DNA of 64,000 nt from Prevotella sp. (GTDB lineage: Bacteria; Bacteroidota; Bacteroidia; Bacteroidales; Bacteroidaceae). The position numbers and the translations under genes are program-made. The stretch is taken from the NCBI GenBank assembly GCA_017627765.1, contig JAGAGD010000019.1:22252-86251 (forward strand), given 5' to 3'. Below, in pieces: positions 6,313 to 64,000 of this stretch. Under the pieces are notes generated by a model. That model was given only the letters and a program-made list of their open reading frames with translations. It had not been told where the DNA came from and searched no databases. Within the stretch, counting starts at the first letter, position 1. Every line of letters begins with the position of its first letter.

Positions 6313-6386
6313 TTTTTTTAGGAGTTAAGGAGTTATATAGTAGGAAACTTTGCTTTATGAAATAAAACCAACAAAATTATTATTTT

Positions 6387-6399
6387 TCAATTATCAATT
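6387..6399 (+). repeat. Short intergenic repeat TCAATTATCAATT, copy 1
   Basis: This 13-nt sequence occurs exactly at 44053-44065 and with one mismatch at 25895-25907, each time in a leader or spacer close to a gene. Here it lies between lysE and the DUF4924 gene, inside a longer CAATT/AATTG-rich stretch. Confidence 0.5.
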
Positions 6400-6416
6400 C
6401 TCAATTGTTAATTCTC

Positions 6417-7238: not shown

Positions 7239-8219
7239 ATGAACTTACAGCAGAACTTGAAGCCTTACGTTATAGGCTTAGACTTGGGAGGAACCAATTC
7301 CGTTTTCGGAATCGTAGACAGTCGTGGAGAAATTAAGGCAACTACAGCCATAAAGACGCAGGGCTATAATAACGTTGAAGAATATGTTGATGCTGCCGTC
7401 GCTGCCGTTGACGTCATAATAGAGCAGGTGGGCGGCATTGAGCTGATTAAGGCGATGGGCATCGGCGCACCTAATGGAAACTATTATAATGGAACAATAG
7501 AATTTGCTCCTAATCTTTCTTGGGGACGCGACGGAATCGTGCCTCTTGCAGATATGTTCAGCAAGAAACTCGGCATACCTGTTGCACTTACCAACGACGC
7601 TAATGCAGCTGCGATAGGCGAAATGACTTATGGCGTTGCTCGCGGAATGAAGAATTTCATTATGATTACTCTTGGAACTGGTGTTGGTTCGGGAATTGTT
7701 GTCAACGGACAGCTTGTATATGGCAGTGATGGTTTTGCAGGAGAGTTAGGTCATACCATCATTCGTCGTGAAGGAGGTCGTCCGTGTGGTTGTGGCCGTA
7801 ACGGTTGTCTTGAGTGCTACTGCTCTGCTACAGGTGTGGCTCGCACAGCACGCGAATTGCTCGATACGACTTCAGAACCTTCTTTGCTGCGCGAACTTAA
7901 TCCAGATGAGATTACATCACTCGATGTCTCTATTGCTGCTGGTAAAGGCGATGCACTGGCTAAGCGCATTTATGAATTTACTGGTGAGATACTCGGAGAG
8001 GCATGTGCCGATTTCACAGCCTTTTCTTCGCCAGAGGCATTTATCTTCTTCGGCGGTCTGACTAAGGCTGGAGACTTGCTAATGGACCCAATAAAGAGAG
8101 CATACGACGAGCATGTTCTGAAGATATTCAAGGGTAAGGCACAATTCCTTGTAAGTGGACTCGATGGTTCGAGTGCTGCAGTTCTTGGTGCTTCAGCAAT
8201 CGGCTGGGAAATTCAGTAA
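7239..8219 (+). CDS. ROK family sugar kinase (glucokinase-like)
   Basis: This 326-residue cytoplasmic kinase probably phosphorylates glucose or a related hexose with ATP. The phosphate-binding loop VIGLDLGGTN is at residues 11-20. TNDANAAAIGE near 118-128 holds the catalytic Asp. GELGHTII supplies the zinc-ligand His172, and CGCGRNGCLE (Cys183, 185, 190) is the ROK zinc motif. A second glycine-rich ATP loop (LGTGVGSG) is at 145-152. ROK members also include N-acetylmannosamine and allose kinases, so substrate is inferred only from the close match to Bacteroides glucokinases. It is a single gene with its own promoter and terminator. Confidence 0.93.
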   Translation: MNLQQNLKPYVIGLDLGGTNSVFGIVDSRGEIKATTAIKTQGYNNVEEYVDAAVAAVDVIIEQVGGIELIKAMGIGAPNGNYYNGTIEFAPNLSWGRDGIVPLADMFSKKLGIPVALTNDANAAAIGEMTYGVARGMKNFIMITLGTGVGSGIVVNGQLVYGSDGFAGELGHTIIRREGGRPCGCGRNGCLECYCSATGVARTARELLDTTSEPSLLRELNPDEITSLDVSIAAGKGDALAKRIYEFTGEILGEACADFTAFSSPEAFIFFGGLTKAGDLLMDPIKRAYDEHVLKIFKGKAQFLVSGLDGSSAAVLGASAIGWEIQ

Positions 8220-8237: not shown

Positions 8238-8288
8238 ATTTTGGCATTTTCCATTATAAGTTCATAATGGGAGATGTCAAAATTTTTC
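8238..8288 (+). terminator. Terminator after the ROK kinase gene
   Basis: A 20-bp stem (8238-8257 with 8264-8283) closes a 6-nt loop and is followed by TTTTT. A few of the pairs are G-U, so it folds best as RNA of the plus strand, consistent with a terminator 18 bp after the stop. Confidence 0.75.
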
Positions 8289-8327
8289 ATACTTTTTGAT
8301 TAACAAAAGTGCCTTTATAATTTAAAA

Positions 8328-8697
8328 TTTTTCGACCGAGCTAAACGAAGTTGCAAAATATGCGAGTATTTGGCGGTTTCTTGCAGTTTTTAGTAAATCG
8401 TTCAATATCAAGACATTATACGTTTCGTCTCATAATTCATAAGTGTTAAAAAAGTCAAAGGGCATCTTTCGCAGTGTGAAAGGGCACCTTTGGCAGTGCA
8501 ATATGCCACATATCGCAGTGTCATATGCCACGTTTCGCATCGCGAAAGGACACCTTTCACTTTTTCGTTCATCACGCTCGTTTACAAAGTTTAAGCCGAT
8601 TGATTAACAATTAAACGCTTTTTTACAATAAGCCTCGTGCCAGACGGAAAAACGGCTCCAAATCTTTTTCTAGATTGAAAGTTTTTGTTGACAAAAA
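8328..8697 (-). repeat. Dispersed intergenic element, copy A (reverse orientation)
   Basis: This is one of three copies in the window of an element of about 370 bp; read on the minus strand it aligns end to end with 39055-39427. Conserved blocks in order are TTCAATCTAGAAAAA, a CCGTTTTTCCGT..TGGCACGAG block, TTGTTAATCAATCGGCTTA, an array of 22-bp units, then CGCCAAATACTC.CATATTTTGCAACTTC and GCTCGGTCGAAAAA. It has no clear terminal inverted repeats, no target-site duplication that I can see, and no transposase. It fills the gap between the ROK kinase terminator and the nrdJ promoter region. I do not recognise a named family. Confidence 0.85.
8457..8566. repeat. Five-unit 22-bp tandem array inside copy A
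   Basis: Five consecutive 22-nt units start at 8457, 8479, 8501, 8523 and 8545. Each starts with a 13-nt arm-loop-arm: AAAGG-GCA-TCTTT, AAAGG-GCA-CCTTT, ATATG-CCA-CATAT, ATATG-CCA-CGTTT, AAAGG-ACA-CCTTT. The remaining 9 nt are of the type CGCAGTGTG in units 1-4. Three of five arm pairs are perfect complements with two different sequences, and one more needs a single G-U pair. An alternative fold pairs the end of one unit with the start of the next (CTTTCGC-AGT-GTGAAAG). Confidence 0.85.
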
Positions 8698-9015
8698 TTT
8701 CTGAACTTTTTGTCAAAATTTTTCATAATATTCCTGCTTGTGTTTTGTGTTAGTCAAATGCAAAAGATTTTTACTGCTGTCAGGTGTTTTTTTGAGTTGT
8801 TAAATTATTCTTTGTGTTCTAAATTTTGGAAAAATACCATTTTATGTGAATAAAACAAAAAAATAACTTGAGGAAAAGCATAAACCATTTCTTCTACAAC
8901 CGTACTTATGTTTTTCATTTTCTATAATTTATGCTATTCTCATATTGCTTAAACTTTACCAAAACGGAAAACTTAGCAAGAGATAATTCTTCAAAAGTTT
9001 TCCAAAAAAGATTTC
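8698..9015. other. AT-rich spacer before nrdJ
   Basis: The spacer is AT-rich and has no plausible ORF. I looked for a cobalamin riboswitch, because nrdJ encodes a B12-dependent enzyme, but saw no B12-box-like sequence or recognisable riboswitch core. Confidence 0.5.
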
Positions 9016-9153: not shown

Positions 9154-11733
9154 ATGAATAACAAGACATATTCCTACGAAGAGGCATTTCAGTCCTCGCT
9201 GAAATATTTCGACGGCGACGAGTTGGCTGCACGCGTTTGGGTCAACAAGTATGCTATGAAAGACAGTTTTGGCAACATCTATGAGCAGTCGCCTTCAGAC
9301 ATGCACCATCGTCTGGCAAGTGAGATTGCCCGCATAGAAAATAAGTATCCTAATGCTATGAGCGAGAAAGACGTGTTTGACTTGTTAGACCATTTCCGCT
9401 ACATTGTTCCGGCAGGCAGCCCTATGACAGGCATTGGAAACGACTATCAGATAGCCTCACTCAGCAATTGTTTTGTTATCGGACTTGACGGCAATGCTGA
9501 TTCCTATGGAGCCATTATGAGAATAGACGAGGAACAGGTGCAGCTCATGAAGCGTCGCGGTGGTGTTGGCCACGACCTTTCCCATATTCGTCCTAAAGGT
9601 TCACCTGTCAACAACTCTGCGCTCACATCTACAGGTCTTGTTCCTTTCATGGAGCGTTACAGTAATAGTACGCGCGAAGTTGCACAAGACGGACGTCGTG
9701 GAGCATTGATGCTTTCTGTCAGCATTAAGCATCCTGACTCAGAAGCTTTCATTGATGCAAAGATGACCGAAGGAAAGGTTACTGGTGCAAACGTTTCTGT
9801 TCGCATTGACGATGAGTTCATGCGTGCTGCCGTAAACGATACAAACTATACTCAGCAGTTCCCTGTTGACAGCACCGAACCTGAATACAAGAAAGACATC
9901 AAGGCAAAAGACCTCTGGCAAAAGATTGTACACAATGCATGGAAGAGTGCTGAGCCTGGAATACTTTTCTGGGATACCATAATAAAAGAAAGCATTCCCG
10001 ACTGCTATGCCGACTTAGGTTTCAGAACCATCTCTACTAATCCATGTGGCGAGATTCCACTTTGTCCTTACGACTCTTGCCGTCTGCTCTCTATAAATCT
10101 CTATTCCTATGTAGTCAATCCATTTACAAAGGATGCTTACTTCGACTTCGACTTGTTCCGCCGTCACGTAGCAATGGCTCAGCGCATCATGGACGATATC
10201 GTTGACTTGGAGCTTGAGAAGATTGAGGCAATCATGGCTAAGATTAAGCGCGATCCACAGTCGCAAGAGGTAAAGGGAGCTGAATATCATCTCTGGGAGA
10301 AAATATATGCTAAGAGTGGCAAGGGCCGCCGTACAGGTGTCGGTATCACCGCAGAAGGCGACATGATTGCAGCAATGGGACTTCGCTACGGAACTCAAGA
10401 GGCTACTGATTTCTCTGTTAAGGTGCATCGCACATTGGCTCTTGCTGCCTATGGCTCTTCTGTGGTTATGGCAAAAGAGCGTGGTGCATTCAGCATATTC
10501 GATGCAAAGCGTGAAGAAAACAATCCATTCGTATTGCGCCTGAAGGAAGCCGACCAGCAGTTGTTTGAAGACATGCAGAAATACGGAAGACGTAATATAG
10601 CCTGTCTGACTATTGCCCCGACAGGTACCACTTCGCTTATGACACAGACCACAAGTGGTATTGAACCTGTGTTTATGCCAGTCTATAAACGTCGCAGAAA
10701 AGTAAATCCAAACGATGTAAACGTTCATGTTGACTTTGTTGATGAAGTAGGCGATTCATTCGAGGAATATATTGTTTATCATCCTAAGTTCCTGAAGTGG
10801 ATGCAGGTCAACGGAATTGATTCTGAAAAACGCTATACTCAGGAAGAGATTGACCAACTTGTAGCTAAGTCGCCATATTACAAGGCAACGGCAAACGATG
10901 TAGACTGGCTTATGAAAGTCAAGATGCAGGGTGCTATTCAGAAGTGGGTAGACCATTCTATCAGTGTAACTGTCAATCTGCCTAACGATGTTGACGAAGA
11001 ACTTGTCAATCGCTTGTATATTGAAGCATGGAAGTCTGGTTGCAAAGGTTGCACAATCTATCGTGACGGAAGCCGTGCAGGAGTAATGATTTCTGTATCG
11101 AAGAAAGACAAGAAAGAAGAGAAAGACTCTACAAAGGACAACAACCTTGAACCAAAGCAGGATACACCTTGCAAGCATCCTGCTGTCACAGAGACTCGCC
11201 CAATTGTGCTGGAGTGTGACGTTGTGCGCTTCCAGAACAATAAGGAAAAATGGGTTGCTTTCGTTGGTTTGCTCGACGGGTATCCATACGAAATATTCAC
11301 TGGTCTGCAAGATGACGAAGAAGGAATAGTCTTGCCAAAAACAGTTACAAAGGGTAAGATTATCAAGCAGATTAACGATGACGGTACTAAGCGCTACGAC
11401 TTCCAGTTTGAGAACAAGAGAGGTTATAAAACAACTGTTGAGGGACTTAGCGAGAAGTTCAATCCTGAGTATTGGAACTATGCAAAACTTATTTCAGGTG
11501 TTTTGCGCTACCGTATGCCTATTGAACACGTAATCAAACTCGTAAGTTCGCTGCAGCTGAAGAGCGAGAGCATCAATACATGGAAGATTGGTGTTGAGCG
11601 TGCTTTGAAAAAATATGTTACTGACGGAACAGAAGCAAAGGGACAGAAATGTCCTGTTTGCGGAAACGAGTCGCTCGTTTATCAGGAAGGATGTCTCATC
11701 TGCAAGAGCTGTGGCGCATCTCGTTGCGGATAG
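9154..11733 (+). CDS. nrdJ: Adenosylcobalamin-dependent (class II) ribonucleotide reductase
   Basis: This 859-residue enzyme reduces ribonucleotides to deoxyribonucleotides using a coenzyme-B12 radical, so it works with or without oxygen. SLSNCFVIG carries the first redox Cys (106). NPCGEIPLCPYDSCRL contains the radical-site Cys298 and the NxCxE active-site motif. CLTIAPTGTTS is the phosphate-binding loop. The C-terminus ends in a CPVCG...CKSCGASRCG zinc-ribbon-like tail that regenerates the active-site thiols in class II enzymes. A middle insert (about residues 650-690) is Lys/Glu-rich linker sequence. It begins an apparent operon with folB, an amidase and an MCE protein, with gaps of 29, 27 and 5 bp. 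Confidence 0.95.
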   Translation: MNNKTYSYEEAFQSSLKYFDGDELAARVWVNKYAMKDSFGNIYEQSPSDMHHRLASEIARIENKYPNAMSEKDVFDLLDHFRYIVPAGSPMTGIGNDYQIASLSNCFVIGLDGNADSYGAIMRIDEEQVQLMKRRGGVGHDLSHIRPKGSPVNNSALTSTGLVPFMERYSNSTREVAQDGRRGALMLSVSIKHPDSEAFIDAKMTEGKVTGANVSVRIDDEFMRAAVNDTNYTQQFPVDSTEPEYKKDIKAKDLWQKIVHNAWKSAEPGILFWDTIIKESIPDCYADLGFRTISTNPCGEIPLCPYDSCRLLSINLYSYVVNPFTKDAYFDFDLFRRHVAMAQRIMDDIVDLELEKIEAIMAKIKRDPQSQEVKGAEYHLWEKIYAKSGKGRRTGVGITAEGDMIAAMGLRYGTQEATDFSVKVHRTLALAAYGSSVVMAKERGAFSIFDAKREENNPFVLRLKEADQQLFEDMQKYGRRNIACLTIAPTGTTSLMTQTTSGIEPVFMPVYKRRRKVNPNDVNVHVDFVDEVGDSFEEYIVYHPKFLKWMQVNGIDSEKRYTQEEIDQLVAKSPYYKATANDVDWLMKVKMQGAIQKWVDHSISVTVNLPNDVDEELVNRLYIEAWKSGCKGCTIYRDGSRAGVMISVSKKDKKEEKDSTKDNNLEPKQDTPCKHPAVTETRPIVLECDVVRFQNNKEKWVAFVGLLDGYPYEIFTGLQDDEEGIVLPKTVTKGKIIKQINDDGTKRYDFQFENKRGYKTTVEGLSEKFNPEYWNYAKLISGVLRYRMPIEHVIKLVSSLQLKSESINTWKIGVERALKKYVTDGTEAKGQKCPVCGNESLVYQEGCLICKSCGASRCG

Positions 11734-30081: not shown

Positions 30082-30199
30082 TATAGCAGTTCTATTGACT
30101 ACTTATAATTTTCTTTTAACTTTAGATTGCATTGATAATGTAATGCACTATAATAATCTTTAATCCATCAACCTTAGTCTTTCATCTTTCATCCTTCAT

Positions 30200-31120
30200 C
30201 TAATTAAGCCCCCATGCATTTGGATGGACTTGGCTTTCTACTTTTTTCTCTATATCATCGGGAAGATTGCAGAAGAAGTCAAGACCTGTAAATTCTTCAA
30301 GACGGTCAATGCTGACAACATATTTTGAAAGAGCATCATTTGTGCGGTTCTCGTTGTTGTGTTCTATTAAGAACGCCATAGCCTTGTAGCCTTGAGAGTT
30401 TTTGCAGAGAACAGCCATGAAGAAATATTTAGGAACAATCAGTCCTTTTGTAGTTGTCATTAGCACTTGATCTTTTTTGTCGATGGTTCCACCTTTACAT
30501 ATATACAGTGTGTCGCGGAATCTGTCTTTATTCCAATAGCGCAGTTGTTGTTCCATCTTCGACCATATGCCTGCATTGAAGGTGTTATATTGTGGATGCA
30601 TGTTCGATAGGTAGAATGTTTGTTCGTTTACGTCGCGTGAACACATTCTGTCTTGCGATGCGCAGATGTGCCCCCTGTCAAAACCGTCACTCTCGTGTTG
30701 CCAAAGTTGGACATTGTAATTTGAAGGTATGTCTGGATCTTCTTGAAAGGGATCGCCTTGCCAAGATGTGTTATACCATTGGTTGCGGCTCCAGTTTATC
30801 ACGTTGTTTCCTGCGTGCATCTGGTAGCAGGTCCAGCGTTGAGCTTTCTTGTCACAATCCCACTCAATGGAGTAGTTTATTCCATAGTCCTCAGTCTTAT
30901 GAACTACAATTAGGTTATTTCCGCTTCCGCTGACATGAGGAAATTCAAGTAGCCGCAGCTCAGGGCGTGTGTTTGGATTTTGATTCTCGTTATTTGTGAT
31001 TACTGGCTTTTCATCGTTGTTGTCGTTATCGTCTCCACAACTGACAAATGTGCAGGCTGTAAAGAACATCAACATGAGGGTAGGTGATAGGTGTAGGTGT
31101 TTTAGAACTTTCATTTTCAT
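30200..31120 (-). CDS. Secreted DNA/RNA non-specific endonuclease (lipoprotein)
   Basis: This 306-residue nuclease of the beta-beta-alpha-metal (NUC1/Serratia) family starts with a lipoprotein signal whose lipobox is FVSCGDD near residue 28. An Asp/Asn-rich linker follows. The catalytic motif DRGHICASQDR supplies the general-base His and LSNMHPQYNTFNAGIW the metal-binding Asn. It would cut DNA and RNA at the cell surface or in the periplasm. It is downstream of rpmE without a clear own promoter, and lies beside two OB-like lipoproteins, a TonB-type barrel and a second nuclease, which suggests extracellular nucleic-acid breakdown. Confidence 0.92.
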   Translation of the reverse strand: MKMKVLKHLHLSPTLMLMFFTACTFVSCGDDNDNNDEKPVITNNENQNPNTRPELRLLEFPHVSGSGNNLIVVHKTEDYGINYSIEWDCDKKAQRWTCYQMHAGNNVINWSRNQWYNTSWQGDPFQEDPDIPSNYNVQLWQHESDGFDRGHICASQDRMCSRDVNEQTFYLSNMHPQYNTFNAGIWSKMEQQLRYWNKDRFRDTLYICKGGTIDKKDQVLMTTTKGLIVPKYFFMAVLCKNSQGYKAMAFLIEHNNENRTNDALSKYVVSIDRLEEFTGLDFFCNLPDDIEKKVESQVHPNAWGLN

Positions 31121-38253: not shown

Positions 38254-38829
38254 ATGCAAGTAGAACACCATCCTCTGAAACCATTTCTTCCGTCTTCCAC
38301 TCGCTTATTGATGCTTGGCAGTTTTCCTCCTGCCAGACACCGATGGTCAATGGATTTCTTCTATCCTAATTTCATCAACGACATGTGGCGCATCTTTGGA
38401 ATTTGTTTCCATGATGACAAAATCTATTTTGTAGACGAAGAGAATAAGACTTTCAGAAAATCGCTCATCATAGAACTTCTTGAAGCGAAAGGCATTGGAC
38501 TCTACGATACGGCAACAGAAGTTATAAGGCTGAAGAATACGGCTTCTGATAAAGATTTAGAGGTGGTGCAACCTACTGATATTCACGCACTTTTGCAGCA
38601 AATACCATTGTGTACTTCAATCGTTACAACAGGTCAGAAAGCTACCGAGTTGCTTTGTTCTTTCTTCGGTGTTGAAGTACCAAAGATTGGAAGTTTTGCC
38701 GAAACCACATACGAAGGTAAGGTGATGCATCTCTATCGCATGCCCAGCAGTTCGAGAGCATATCCAATGAAGGTTGAGAAAAAGGCAGAATTCTATAAAC
38801 AGATGTTTATGGCAGAAGGACTAATCTGA
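38254..38829 (+). CDS. Uracil-DNA glycosylase superfamily protein
   Basis: This 191-residue cytoplasmic protein belongs to the UDG superfamily. The catalytic-water loop is LMLGSFPPARHRWSMDFFYPN, TTGQKATELL is a middle motif, and the DNA-intercalation loop is MPSSSRAYPM near residue 168. Such enzymes remove uracil or other damaged bases from DNA. The subfamily is not certain. It has no signal peptide, so it is a repair enzyme rather than part of surface nucleic-acid uptake, despite lying at the end of that locus. Confidence 0.82.
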   Translation: MQVEHHPLKPFLPSSTRLLMLGSFPPARHRWSMDFFYPNFINDMWRIFGICFHDDKIYFVDEENKTFRKSLIIELLEAKGIGLYDTATEVIRLKNTASDKDLEVVQPTDIHALLQQIPLCTSIVTTGQKATELLCSFFGVEVPKIGSFAETTYEGKVMHLYRMPSSSRAYPMKVEKKAEFYKQMFMAEGLI

Positions 38830-38968: not shown

Positions 38969-39054
38969 GAAATGTTCAAGTGTTAAAATCCTGCTATGGA
39001 CAAATATCGTGCCAGAAATTTTCAGACACACTGTTTTAACATATATTATATGGA

Positions 39055-39427
39055 TTTTTTTGTCAACCAAAACTTTCAATCTAGAAAAACATTTCGAGCC
39101 GTTTTTCCGTTTGGCACGAGACTGAATGCAAAAATGTGTTTAATTGTTAATCAATCGGCTTAAACTATGTGAACGAGCGTGAGGAACGAAAAAGTGAAAG
39201 GTGTCCTTTCGCGATGCGAAACGTGGCATATGACCATGCAATATGTGGCATATCGCAGTGCCAAAGGTGCCCTTTCGCACTGCGAAAGGATACCTTTGAC
39301 TTTTTTAACAGTTATGAGTTTTGCGATGAAAATCATAAGATGTTGATTACTAACAAATTACTAAAAACAGCGAGAAGTCGCCAAATACTCCCATATTTTG
39401 CAACTTCTTTTTGCTCGGTCGAAAAAA
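39055..39427 (+). repeat. Dispersed intergenic element, copy B (forward orientation)
   Basis: This is the complete forward copy, about 373 bp, between the convergent glycosylase and trmN6 genes. It carries all conserved blocks seen in copy A, in the same order, with scattered substitutions. A frame across it (39169-39453) stays open for 94 codons but shows no protein family and is best regarded as a by-product of the repeat. Confidence 0.85.
39188..39297. repeat. Five-unit 22-bp tandem array inside copy B
   Basis: Units start at 39188, 39210, 39232, 39254 and 39276. Arm-loop-arm cores are AAAGG-TGT-CCTTT, AAACG-TGG-CATAT, ATATG-TGG-CATAT, AAAGG-TGC-CCTTT and AAAGG-ATA-CCTTT: four of five are perfect complements. 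Across the last unit boundary CCTTTCGC-ACT-GCGAAAGG forms a perfect 8-bp stem. Confidence 0.85.
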
Positions 39428-39498
39428 ATCGATTCTCCGAACCATTAAATTGATTAACAAAAAGTTGATTGTTAAAAAAATAAAACTTAAAAAACGTC

Positions 39499-40227
39499 TT
39501 ATTTCTCGTCTAAATAAAAGTCGCGTGTAAGCCCTTTATACCATTCACTTTTTTTGCCTTCATTGTCAAGCAAAGTCTGCTCATATTCTTCGAATTTGCG
39601 TGGCGGTTGTTTAGAGAATGATAGTAGCTGTCGTTTTGCCGCTTTCTTAGCCGTTGTTTTCAGGCTGTACTTCCTGCTCAGAAAAAGTCCATGTAGCGAT
39701 GCTTCAGCCTTAAACACGCCAAGATAATCAGTAGGAATAATCACAGAAAATTCGCCTTTGTCAGTCATAGTCTTCTCAACAGCGGCAAACAGTTCAGCAA
39801 ATGGCAATGTCTCAGCGTGTCGTGCTGCGGAACGCTTGCTGTCAGGGCTTTTCAGAGAGTTTACAAAGAAGGGCGGATTGCATACAATAGAGTCGTATTT
39901 TTTGTTGTTTTCCGCTTCAGACTGAGTAGCAAATCGCTGAATAGAAGTTTGGAAAATGCTGATTCTTTCTGCAAACTCCGACCTTGCCACGTTCTCCATT
40001 GTCTGCTGGAAAGCGTCTTCGTCGATGTCGATTGCCGTAATCTCACTTTCAGGGAAGCGCTGAGCCATCATCAGAGATATCAGCCCAGAGCCGCAACCTA
40101 CGTCAAGAATGCGCTTTCCGCCATTAGCCCAAGCCCCCAACAAAACACCGTCAGTGCCAACCTTCATACCGCATTTGTCGTGATATACGATGAACCTTTT
40201 GAAAGCAAAATAATTGTTTGAAGTCAT
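39499..40227 (-). CDS. trmN6: tRNA1(Val) adenine-37 N6-methyltransferase TrmN6-like
   Basis: This 242-residue SAM-dependent methyltransferase has GTDGVLLGAWANGGKRILDVGCGSGLISLMMA, where VGCGSG is the SAM loop near residue 43, and IVCNPPFF, the NPPF motif of N6-adenine methyltransferases. DKCGMKVGTDGVLLG is typical of the YfiC/TrmN6 group, which methylates A37 of tRNA1(Val). I use the ATG at 40227; a longer frame needs a TTG upstream. It stands alone, convergent with the glycosylase gene, with element copy B in between. Confidence 0.88.
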   Translation of the reverse strand: MTSNNYFAFKRFIVYHDKCGMKVGTDGVLLGAWANGGKRILDVGCGSGLISLMMAQRFPESEITAIDIDEDAFQQTMENVARSEFAERISIFQTSIQRFATQSEAENNKKYDSIVCNPPFFVNSLKSPDSKRSAARHAETLPFAELFAAVEKTMTDKGEFSVIIPTDYLGVFKAEASLHGLFLSRKYSLKTTAKKAAKRQLLSFSKQPPRKFEEYEQTLLDNEGKKSEWYKGLTRDFYLDEK

Positions 40228-40298
40228 TTTCTTAGCCCTATTGTCCTGCAAAATTATAAATTATCTATAAAAAACCGCTTTTTCTGCTCATAAATTTG

Positions 40299-63556: not shown

Positions 63557-63827
63557 AAATACATTATTTATATTCTTTAAGTTTCGGAAATCGCTCGAAG
63601 ATTGAGAGATGCCGAAATTTCTGCTATATTATATAACGACAGAAAGCGGTGATTATTGTATTGTTATGCAAAAATCTGCTAATTGTGGACTTTTCCGCAT
63701 CATTCCAACATACATATTGCTGTCAGCCTGTATATAGCACATGTAGTATTAGTGCCCTTTTTTGAAAATAAACTATCAAACTGAAAGCAAATTTTCTACC
63801 GATTTTTTTGACGAAAAAAGTAAAAAA
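63557..63827. other. AT-rich spacer upstream of the Wzi-like gene
   Basis: This spacer contains no plausible gene. No convincing promoter match for the leftward Wzi-like gene was found. Confidence 0.4.
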
Positions 63828-64000
63828 TCTTGACAAACGGAATTTTAATTCTAGAGAAAGATTTTCCGTTTGGCACGAGGCGAAATGCAAAAATGTGTTT
63901 AATTGTTAATCAATCGGCTTAAACTATGTAAACGAACATAAGGAACGAAAAAGTGAAAGGTGTCCTTTCGCGATGCGAAACGTGGCATATCGCAGTGCGA
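63828..64000 (+). repeat. Dispersed intergenic element, copy C (cut by window edge)
   Basis: The forward copy shares TTCCGTTTGGCACGAG, TTTAATTGTTAATCAATCGG and GAACGAAAAAGTGAAAGG with copy B. Its left part diverges and holds an inverted repeat CAAACGGAA / TTCCGTTTG (63834-63842 with 63864-63872). Array units start at 63947 and 63969; the next begins CGCAGTGCGA, unlike the corresponding unit of copies A and B, so unit order differs. Confidence 0.8.

Follow-up and report, generated by a model that had tools for sequence, protein, structure and literature searches.

The window analyzed here, 64,000 nucleotides spanning bases 22252–86251 of contig C99, comes from a Prevotella sp. assembly of 120 contigs (2.48 Mb; completeness 87.95%) and contains three copies of a dispersed repeat, designated A, B, and C. 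Copy A lies in reverse orientation between a ROK gene and the RNR gene, copy B lies between a gene with no Pfam family and a methyltransferase gene, and copy C is a left half only (Table 1). Copy C is incomplete because base 64000 of the window is the end of contig C99 (86251), a matter of assembly and not of biology. We located the copies with an nhmmer profile made from 38 aligned copies of the same genome, and all three proved to be real and to have common blocks in a fixed order (E from 7.3e-148 to 3.1e-75), as originally predicted; the predicted coordinates were close, but each copy is somewhat longer than had been noted. A 17-b direct repeat that flanks copy A, TATGAAAAATTTTGACA, occurs in the window only at 8275 and 8711, and related motifs border other copies of the same class as copy A, those without inverted ends (judged by eye). 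Elsewhere in the window there are a TPP riboswitch (RF00059; 19745–19839, minus strand, 61.4 bits) and two short 14-b tandem repeats (6375–6416 and 30156–30201; TRF).

Table 1. Positions in the window of copies A, B, and C, their parts, and the neighboring genes
Feature	Position	Strand	Basis or remark
Copy A, whole repeat	8290–8749	-	nhmmer, 38-copy profile, E 7.3e-148
Copy A, neighboring genes	ROK gene 7239–8219; RNR gene 9154–11733		copy A between them
Copy A, central array of 22-b palindromic units, with edges	8449–8564	-	TRF: 8457–8558, 4.6 units
Copy A, left-block dyad TTGTTAATCAATCGGCTTA	8592–8610	-	conserved
Copy A, right block TACTCGCATATTTTGCAACTTC	8347–8368	-	conserved
17-b direct repeat TATGAAAAATTTTGACA flanking copy A, left member	8711–8727	-	
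17-b direct repeat TATGAAAAATTTTGACA flanking copy A, right member	8275–8291	-	
Copy B, whole repeat	39000–39459	+	nhmmer, 38-copy profile, E 3e-139
Copy B, neighboring genes	38254–38829 (+, no Pfam); methyltransferase 39499–40251 (-)		copy B between them
Copy B, left-block dyad TTGTTAATCAATCGGCTTA	39144–39162	+	conserved
Copy B, central array of 22-b palindromic units, with edges	39190–39305	+	TRF: 39253–39297, period 22
Copy B, right block TACTCCCATATTTTGCAACTTC	39386–39407	+	conserved
Copy C, left half only	63759–64000	+	nhmmer, 38-copy profile, E 3.1e-75
Copy C, left terminal inverted-repeat sequence CTATCAAACTGAAAGC	63773–63788	+	compared with ends of complete copies
Copy C, left-block dyad	63903–63921	+	conserved
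Copy C, start of 22-b array, cut at contig end	63949–64000	+	read from sequence

The three copies belong to an abundant chromosomal family, as the original prediction had supposed and as the genome-wide search now confirms. The core TTAATTGTTAATCAATCGGCTTAAACT, with up to three mismatches, occurs at 95 sites in the 2.48-Mb assembly and the right block TACTCNCATATTTTGCAACTTC at 85, compared to none for either reversed control, and thus the repeat is far above chance. With copy B as the query, the best 40 of 164 candidates were 83–100% identical over 283–373 b. Merging the core and right-block words gave 137 places, which comprised 43 with both words, 52 with the left word only, and 42 with the right word only; because many of the single halves sit at contig ends, we take the family to number about 95 copies. 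Moreover, an element word is found within the first 300 b of 49 of the 120 contigs, and therefore the repeat is itself a likely cause of the breaks in the assembly. The intergenic location likewise held beyond the window: all 30 copies with at least 1 kb of sequence on both sides lie between genes according to a hexamer gene model, the remaining copies being mostly at contig ends. A search of a 464-kb sample also revealed a second subfamily, comprising two divergent copies (C86 47385–47619 and C81 8043–8309, minus strand) that are mutually very alike by eye and that have only blocks in common with the main family, namely a TTTGGC.CG word, the GTTGTTAATCAAT block, and the array; further divergent copies may exist, since the subfamily was seen only through this sample.

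The element is built of modules in a set order: a left tail with an inverted end, a left block (..TTTGGCACG..GTTTAATTGTTAATCAATCGGCTTAAAC..), an array, a right block (..TACTCGCATATTTTGCAACTTC..), and a right tail with an inverted end. The 19 complete copies are 518–540 b long (mode 528), start with CTTACAAACTGTAAC or CTTACAATCTGAAAGC, and end with GCTTTCAGATTGAAAG. The array consists of AAAGGTGTCCTTTCGCGATGCG and its variants with a period of 22 (TRF), in four to five 22-b units that each have roughly the form AAAGG-NNN-CCTTT plus a GC-NNN-GC linker. Conservation is block-wise, as predicted, and is greatest in this array: mean pairwise identity among the 38 copies is 0.913 in the array (91%), compared to 52–83% elsewhere (0.826 in the left block, 0.765 in the right block, 0.638 in the left tail, and 0.524 in the right tail). 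The suggestion that such a pattern reflects selection on parts of the element is plausible, but gene conversion or an exchange of units within the array could also keep the arrays alike. Among the 37 distinct arrays, counting only those in which both edges match set words, 34 are 116 b long and three are 94 b long, that is, one unit fewer, and in one of the 116-b arrays (L050) a unit has been replaced.

The symmetry of the units suggests that they can fold as small hairpins, in DNA or in RNA. We measured pairing per position around the GC-NNN-GC centers, which was 0.34–0.52 in the arrays of another genome of the genus, G053, and 0.35–0.65 in the other genus genomes, compared to 0.22–0.30 at control sites in G053. 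This excess is modest, and therefore the predicted hairpins draw mainly on inspection of single arrays.

The original prediction had described copies with neither clear terminal inverted repeats nor clear target duplications. The first part of that description fits copies A and B, which belong to a minority class without inverted ends, but the 19 complete copies do end in imperfect inverted repeats, of which copy C keeps the left one. The outer 16 b of complete copies match inversely at a mean of 11.3 positions, compared to 4.6 with shuffled letters (a mean taken, like the duplication rate below, from 21 rows that include two spurious ones with lengths of 15 and -340), although inverted and direct ends are hard to separate because each end is itself nearly palindromic. 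Of 76 left flanks, 60 carry the outer left sequence; on the other side, the outer right sequence was seen in 38 of 59 flanks, a set that includes a few chance rows. The second part of the description held: a duplication of at least 4 b is found in 5 of the 21 rows (24%), compared to 32% expected in shuffled end pairs.

The copies also appear to carry no transposase, as had been claimed, in that the longest frame of copy B, at 100 aa, matches no Pfam family at E 1. A search of the genome for the Y1 transposase PF01797 likewise gave no match (33 candidates scored, with ~12% of the genome possibly missing from the assembly), while the same search gave matches in 5 of 14 control genomes. The right-end word, with up to two mismatches, is found at 80 places (reversed control, 1), of which we inspected eight that seemed to be away from known copies; two of these eight are element ends, one clear and the other degenerate, and the rest are chance matches, with no insertion sequence (IS) among them.

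The element is not the only repeat found between genes here. A second one, also abundant and rich in hairpins (CAGTCACTTCGTGACAGCTCC), has 50 places in the genome (control, 0; for example L165 and L173); its hairpins are CACGATGCCGTTGCATCGTG and CAGTCACTTCGTGACAGCTCCCCTAACTTAGGGG, and it is often attached to the element's left end through a constant junction, in which ..GAGCAATTACTG is followed directly by CTTACAA. To the right of a number of copies, there are AACTTTAACGGGAACG-like or AACTATGCACTATG-like runs (for example at L048, L060, and L085). Since repeats adjoin at fixed junctions, we consider the intergenic space of this genome to be a mosaic of repeat modules.

The full element was found in no genome but its own. 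Among 299 genomes of the genus, its own included, and considering the best two candidates in each, only its own has the full element, while 17 others match over 22–95 b; in 15 of these the match falls within or beside the array, and in two it falls in the left part. In 149 relatives (best four candidates each), 10 besides its own match, over short stretches only and with no full element. Two loci of other genus genomes, L144 and L145 (genomes G191 and G046), contain an exact copy of 22 b from the left part of copy B (query bases 14–35). The nearest of 397 other genus genomes has an RNR gene only 75% identical, and thus, with nothing close to the species in the sample, the element cannot be called species-specific in any fine sense. 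For the same reason of distance between genomes, or at least of gene order, no empty site could be demonstrated at copy A: no ROK gene was found in the stretch of up to 1.5 kb upstream of RNR in 29 relatives, so that the comparison failed because synteny is absent. We reject an origin from a phage or plasmid, since blastn detected no match to the element in phages or plasmids and a search by exact pattern found no core in viral contigs. A lone 19-base exact match in Moheibacter was taken as chance, in a contig collection that may omit the element's own genome and its near kin.

Based on its anatomy, copy number, narrow occurrence, and intergenic sites, we group the element with the MITE-like, PINSR- or BrickBuilt-like repeats of Bacteroidales. 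Specifically, we think it probable, though well short of certain, that the element is an old non-autonomous, MITE-like dispersed repeat of ~370–540 b with a REP-like array of 22-b hairpins in its middle. Several results weigh against this reading: the rate of target-site duplication does not exceed that of shuffled end pairs, no IS with the element's ends was found in the eight places, copies A and B do without inverted ends, and no empty site has been shown.

In contrast to the full element, the palindrome of its array, AAAGGNNNCCTTT, is common in some other genomes. It occurs at 221 sites in the element's own genome and at 194 in G053 (reversed controls, 3 and 4), and 20 of the 398 genus genomes, its own included, show a strong enrichment, with 36–416 sites in each (controls, 0–12). 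The other 378 genomes have no more than 21 sites, and the reversed control itself reaches 20 in two of them. In G053, the array is common to 40 scored places, and the flanks are not. Furthermore, a second palindrome, YTG N5 CAR N2-4 STTA, stands beside 19 of 49 arrays in four genomes (G053, G078, G065, and G402), compared to 12 of 799 control windows; a stricter form of this companion, derived from the sequence around the arrays as GTAAC..YTGRYNRYCAR..GTTAC with a spacer of 3, has 21 occurrences close to arrays and 7 in the remainder of 381,381 b, and a single one with a spacer of 4. The companion resembles the left dyad of the element and the two may be homologous, a likeness that is only suggestive because the spacer is 4 in the left dyad and 3 in the companion. 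At one locus of G053 (L245, 1431–2337), an array overlaps a predicted gene, which may be either an error of the gene model or an array in a coding end.

We found that the copies are distributed along the chromosome more evenly than chance would give, on the assumption, made in all of the simulations, that breakage of contigs is independent of spacing. The 59 pairs of neighboring copies on the same contig are never closer than 7,136 b and lie 18.7 kb apart on average, with a coefficient of variation (CV) of 0.57. When copies were placed at random (3,000 runs per cut-off, with contigs under 3, 5, 7, or 9 kb discarded), 15–21 of 75–82 pairs fell short of 7,136 b, and no run was without such a pair; because the random placements yield 75–82 pairs compared to 59 observed, we also express this result as a fraction (20–25%) and scaled to the observed number (12–15 per 59). 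In a second test, with contigs of known length and copies at contig ends held fixed, the 15 contigs over 40 kb with at least two copies gave 28 spacings with a minimum of 10.7 kb (0 of 5,000 random placements) and a CV of 0.46 (P 0.001), and omission of the two divergent copies made little difference (CV 0.47, P 0.0024). Neighboring copies are inconsistently oriented along contigs, with 23 pairs in the same and 36 in opposite orientation. Deletion between direct repeats fits the lack of close pairs poorly, because it would remove same-orientation pairs only and pairs of both orientations are missing below 7 kb. Transposition alone does not account for the even spacing either, which is a further point against the MITE-like reading.

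The spacing raises the question of whether the element is instead a chromosome-organizing site, in which the array and the dyad blocks would bind a nucleoid, gyrase, or segregation protein and a minimum spacing would be kept. Such a site would be expected to show the over-dispersion just described, and both the symmetry of the units and the second palindrome beside arrays in other species are consistent with it. However, the inconsistent orientation of neighbors and the enrichment of the AAAGG palindrome in so few genomes of the genus argue against it, as do the arrays of G053, for which the CV of 0.97 is that of random placement and among which close pairs are only weakly depleted (P 0.008; at least 34 arrays on four contigs). 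The site is a candidate to which no protein has been assigned, and we regard this explanation as possible but unlikely. A broader version, to which we give slightly less credence still, holds that the arrays and the companion palindrome are putative binding sites of a new chromosome-organizing system of the genus, which would be amplified in some species and wrapped here in a larger repeat, with the spacing kept, whether actively or through selection, to at least ~7–10 kb.

We considered with similar reserve that the element might be a known repeat, namely PINSR or a direct orthologue of it, carried by a different species of the P. intermedia/nigrescens group. PINSR of P. intermedia, as far as its published description is used here, is a 188-b repeat with 177–184 copies that is intergenic, clade-limited, and described as being without terminal inverted repeats (PMC4755523). 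The genus is the same and the likeness extends to the intergenic sites, the clade restriction, imperfect copies, a copy number of similar order (100–200 per genome), and an overlap with small ORFs judged to be non-coding (PMC4755523). In contrast, the element is 370–540 b long, has a 22-b array, and bears imperfect inverted ends in its complete copies, features that set it apart from PINSR as described. Identity with PINSR is therefore doubtful in our view.

The MITE-like reading finds a structural parallel in BrickBuilt of Porphyromonas gingivalis, which in the account drawn on here consists of a leader, 23-nt repeats, a tail, and small inverted ends, has 19 copies (compared to about 95 of the element), has ends that match IS5-family ISs, and shows promoter activity in E. 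coli (PMC4596501). By that description, BrickBuilt appears to resemble the element in its succession of leader, tandem 22/23-b units, tail, and short inverted ends, and also in being intergenic and species-limited, with a variable number of units, predicted hairpins, and no consistent target duplication (PMC4596501). It appears to differ in that no IS matching the element's ends was found among the eight right-end places, and in that even spacing, a property of the element, is not reported in the parts of the BrickBuilt paper considered here (PMC4596501). The element also shares some properties with REP/BIME sequences and with REPINs and their RAYTs, which are high-copy extragenic palindromes in direct and inverted arrangement, with a tendency of REP/BIME to be 3'-proximal that is shared by the G053 arrays (PMC3733652, PMC2817692, PMC3116915). 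Unlike those systems, however, the element has 22-b units in tandem inside a longer repeat, and no PF01797 transposase was found in the assembly. A class of Y1 transposases, mostly from Bacteroidetes, is described as having atypical flanking structures with copies elsewhere in the genome (PMC6006769). We found no further matching Prevotella repeat family among open-licence papers on palindromic, dispersed, or 22-bp intergenic repeats. Thus, the original statement that the family was not recognized as a named one stands insofar as there is no Rfam match and no matching transposon in the places checked, but PINSR and BrickBuilt, judging from their descriptions, appear to be very close in kind to the element.

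Another alternative, which we consider improbable, is that the element acts at the level of RNA, with hairpin arrays in 3' UTRs that stabilize or terminate messages, as proposed for REPs. The arrays of G053 are compatible with this idea: of 14 arrays between tandem genes, 12 are closer to the stop of the upstream gene than to the start of the downstream one, and divergent gaps hold only 2 of the 21 arrays with both neighbors (25 arrays from 30 loci). In the element's own genome, however, divergent gaps are at or above background. The 30 intergenic copies examined with the hexamer gene model fall in 15 tandem, 10 divergent, and 5 convergent gaps, and the 14 element gaps in the 464-kb sample are 6 tandem, 4 divergent, and 4 convergent, compared to 122, 46, and 42 among all 210 gaps over 50 b. 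Since gene strands around the copies are near background, as expected for inserted DNA and not for a terminator, we rejected a role in transcription termination. Moreover, ordinary terminator-like hairpins are present besides: 27 of the 46 strong hairpins in this sample are in convergent gaps, and three of these 27 are in the element.

Direct searches for RNA features also weigh against an RNA-level function. On either strand, the consensus fold is weak except in the array, and Rfam 15 gave, on the window, the TPP riboswitch away from the element as its sole match. At the three element loci, with a threshold of E 0.5, only the EF0820_EF0821 family touches the element, at 18.1 bits compared to a gathering threshold of 442 (E 0.44). 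We therefore rejected a structured RNA gene; the element has no match to an annotated RNA family in Rfam, nor is it confined to the window, either of which would have spoken against the original prediction. The Bacteroidetes-type promoter motif TANNTTTG has no column in which it is present in more than 3 of 38 copies, and a looser form found in 29 of the 38 at one column was discounted as too degenerate. Finally, that the element encodes a small protein or its relic is very improbable, and we rejected it, since, although the 100-aa frame is open through copy B (39151–39453) and its right-block part (..LLKTARNRQILAYFATSF..) is open in 14 of 34 copies, the latter is stopped in the other 20, including copy A, codon-phase variation is weak, and Pfam gave no family.

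We return to the old MITE-like repeat as the best explanation. The observed part of the mechanism that we propose consists of anatomy, distribution, and spacing: about 95 copies that are intergenic where checked, a modular structure with a mean core identity of 83%, the loss and exchange of array units, and the amplification of similar arrays, without the element's flanks, in other species of the genus. For the remainder, it seems most likely to us that a transposase acted in trans and is now lost or unseen in the assembly, and that the hairpin array has been kept by selection or by gene conversion. The family would have spread through its inverted ends and would now be largely fixed. If selection has kept the array, a protein might read it as a hairpin or cruciform site. 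The even spacing might arise because any copy that inserted close to an existing one would have been lost or disallowed.

A single uncharacterized repeat makes up ~2% of the genome (an estimate based on 95 copies of roughly half a kilobase). The even spacing of its copies offers a way to test whether repeats of this kind are parasites that the chromosome tolerates or components that work in it, and the AAAGGNNNCCTTT hairpin array may be an ingredient common to species-specific repeats of Bacteroidales, PINSR and BrickBuilt among them.
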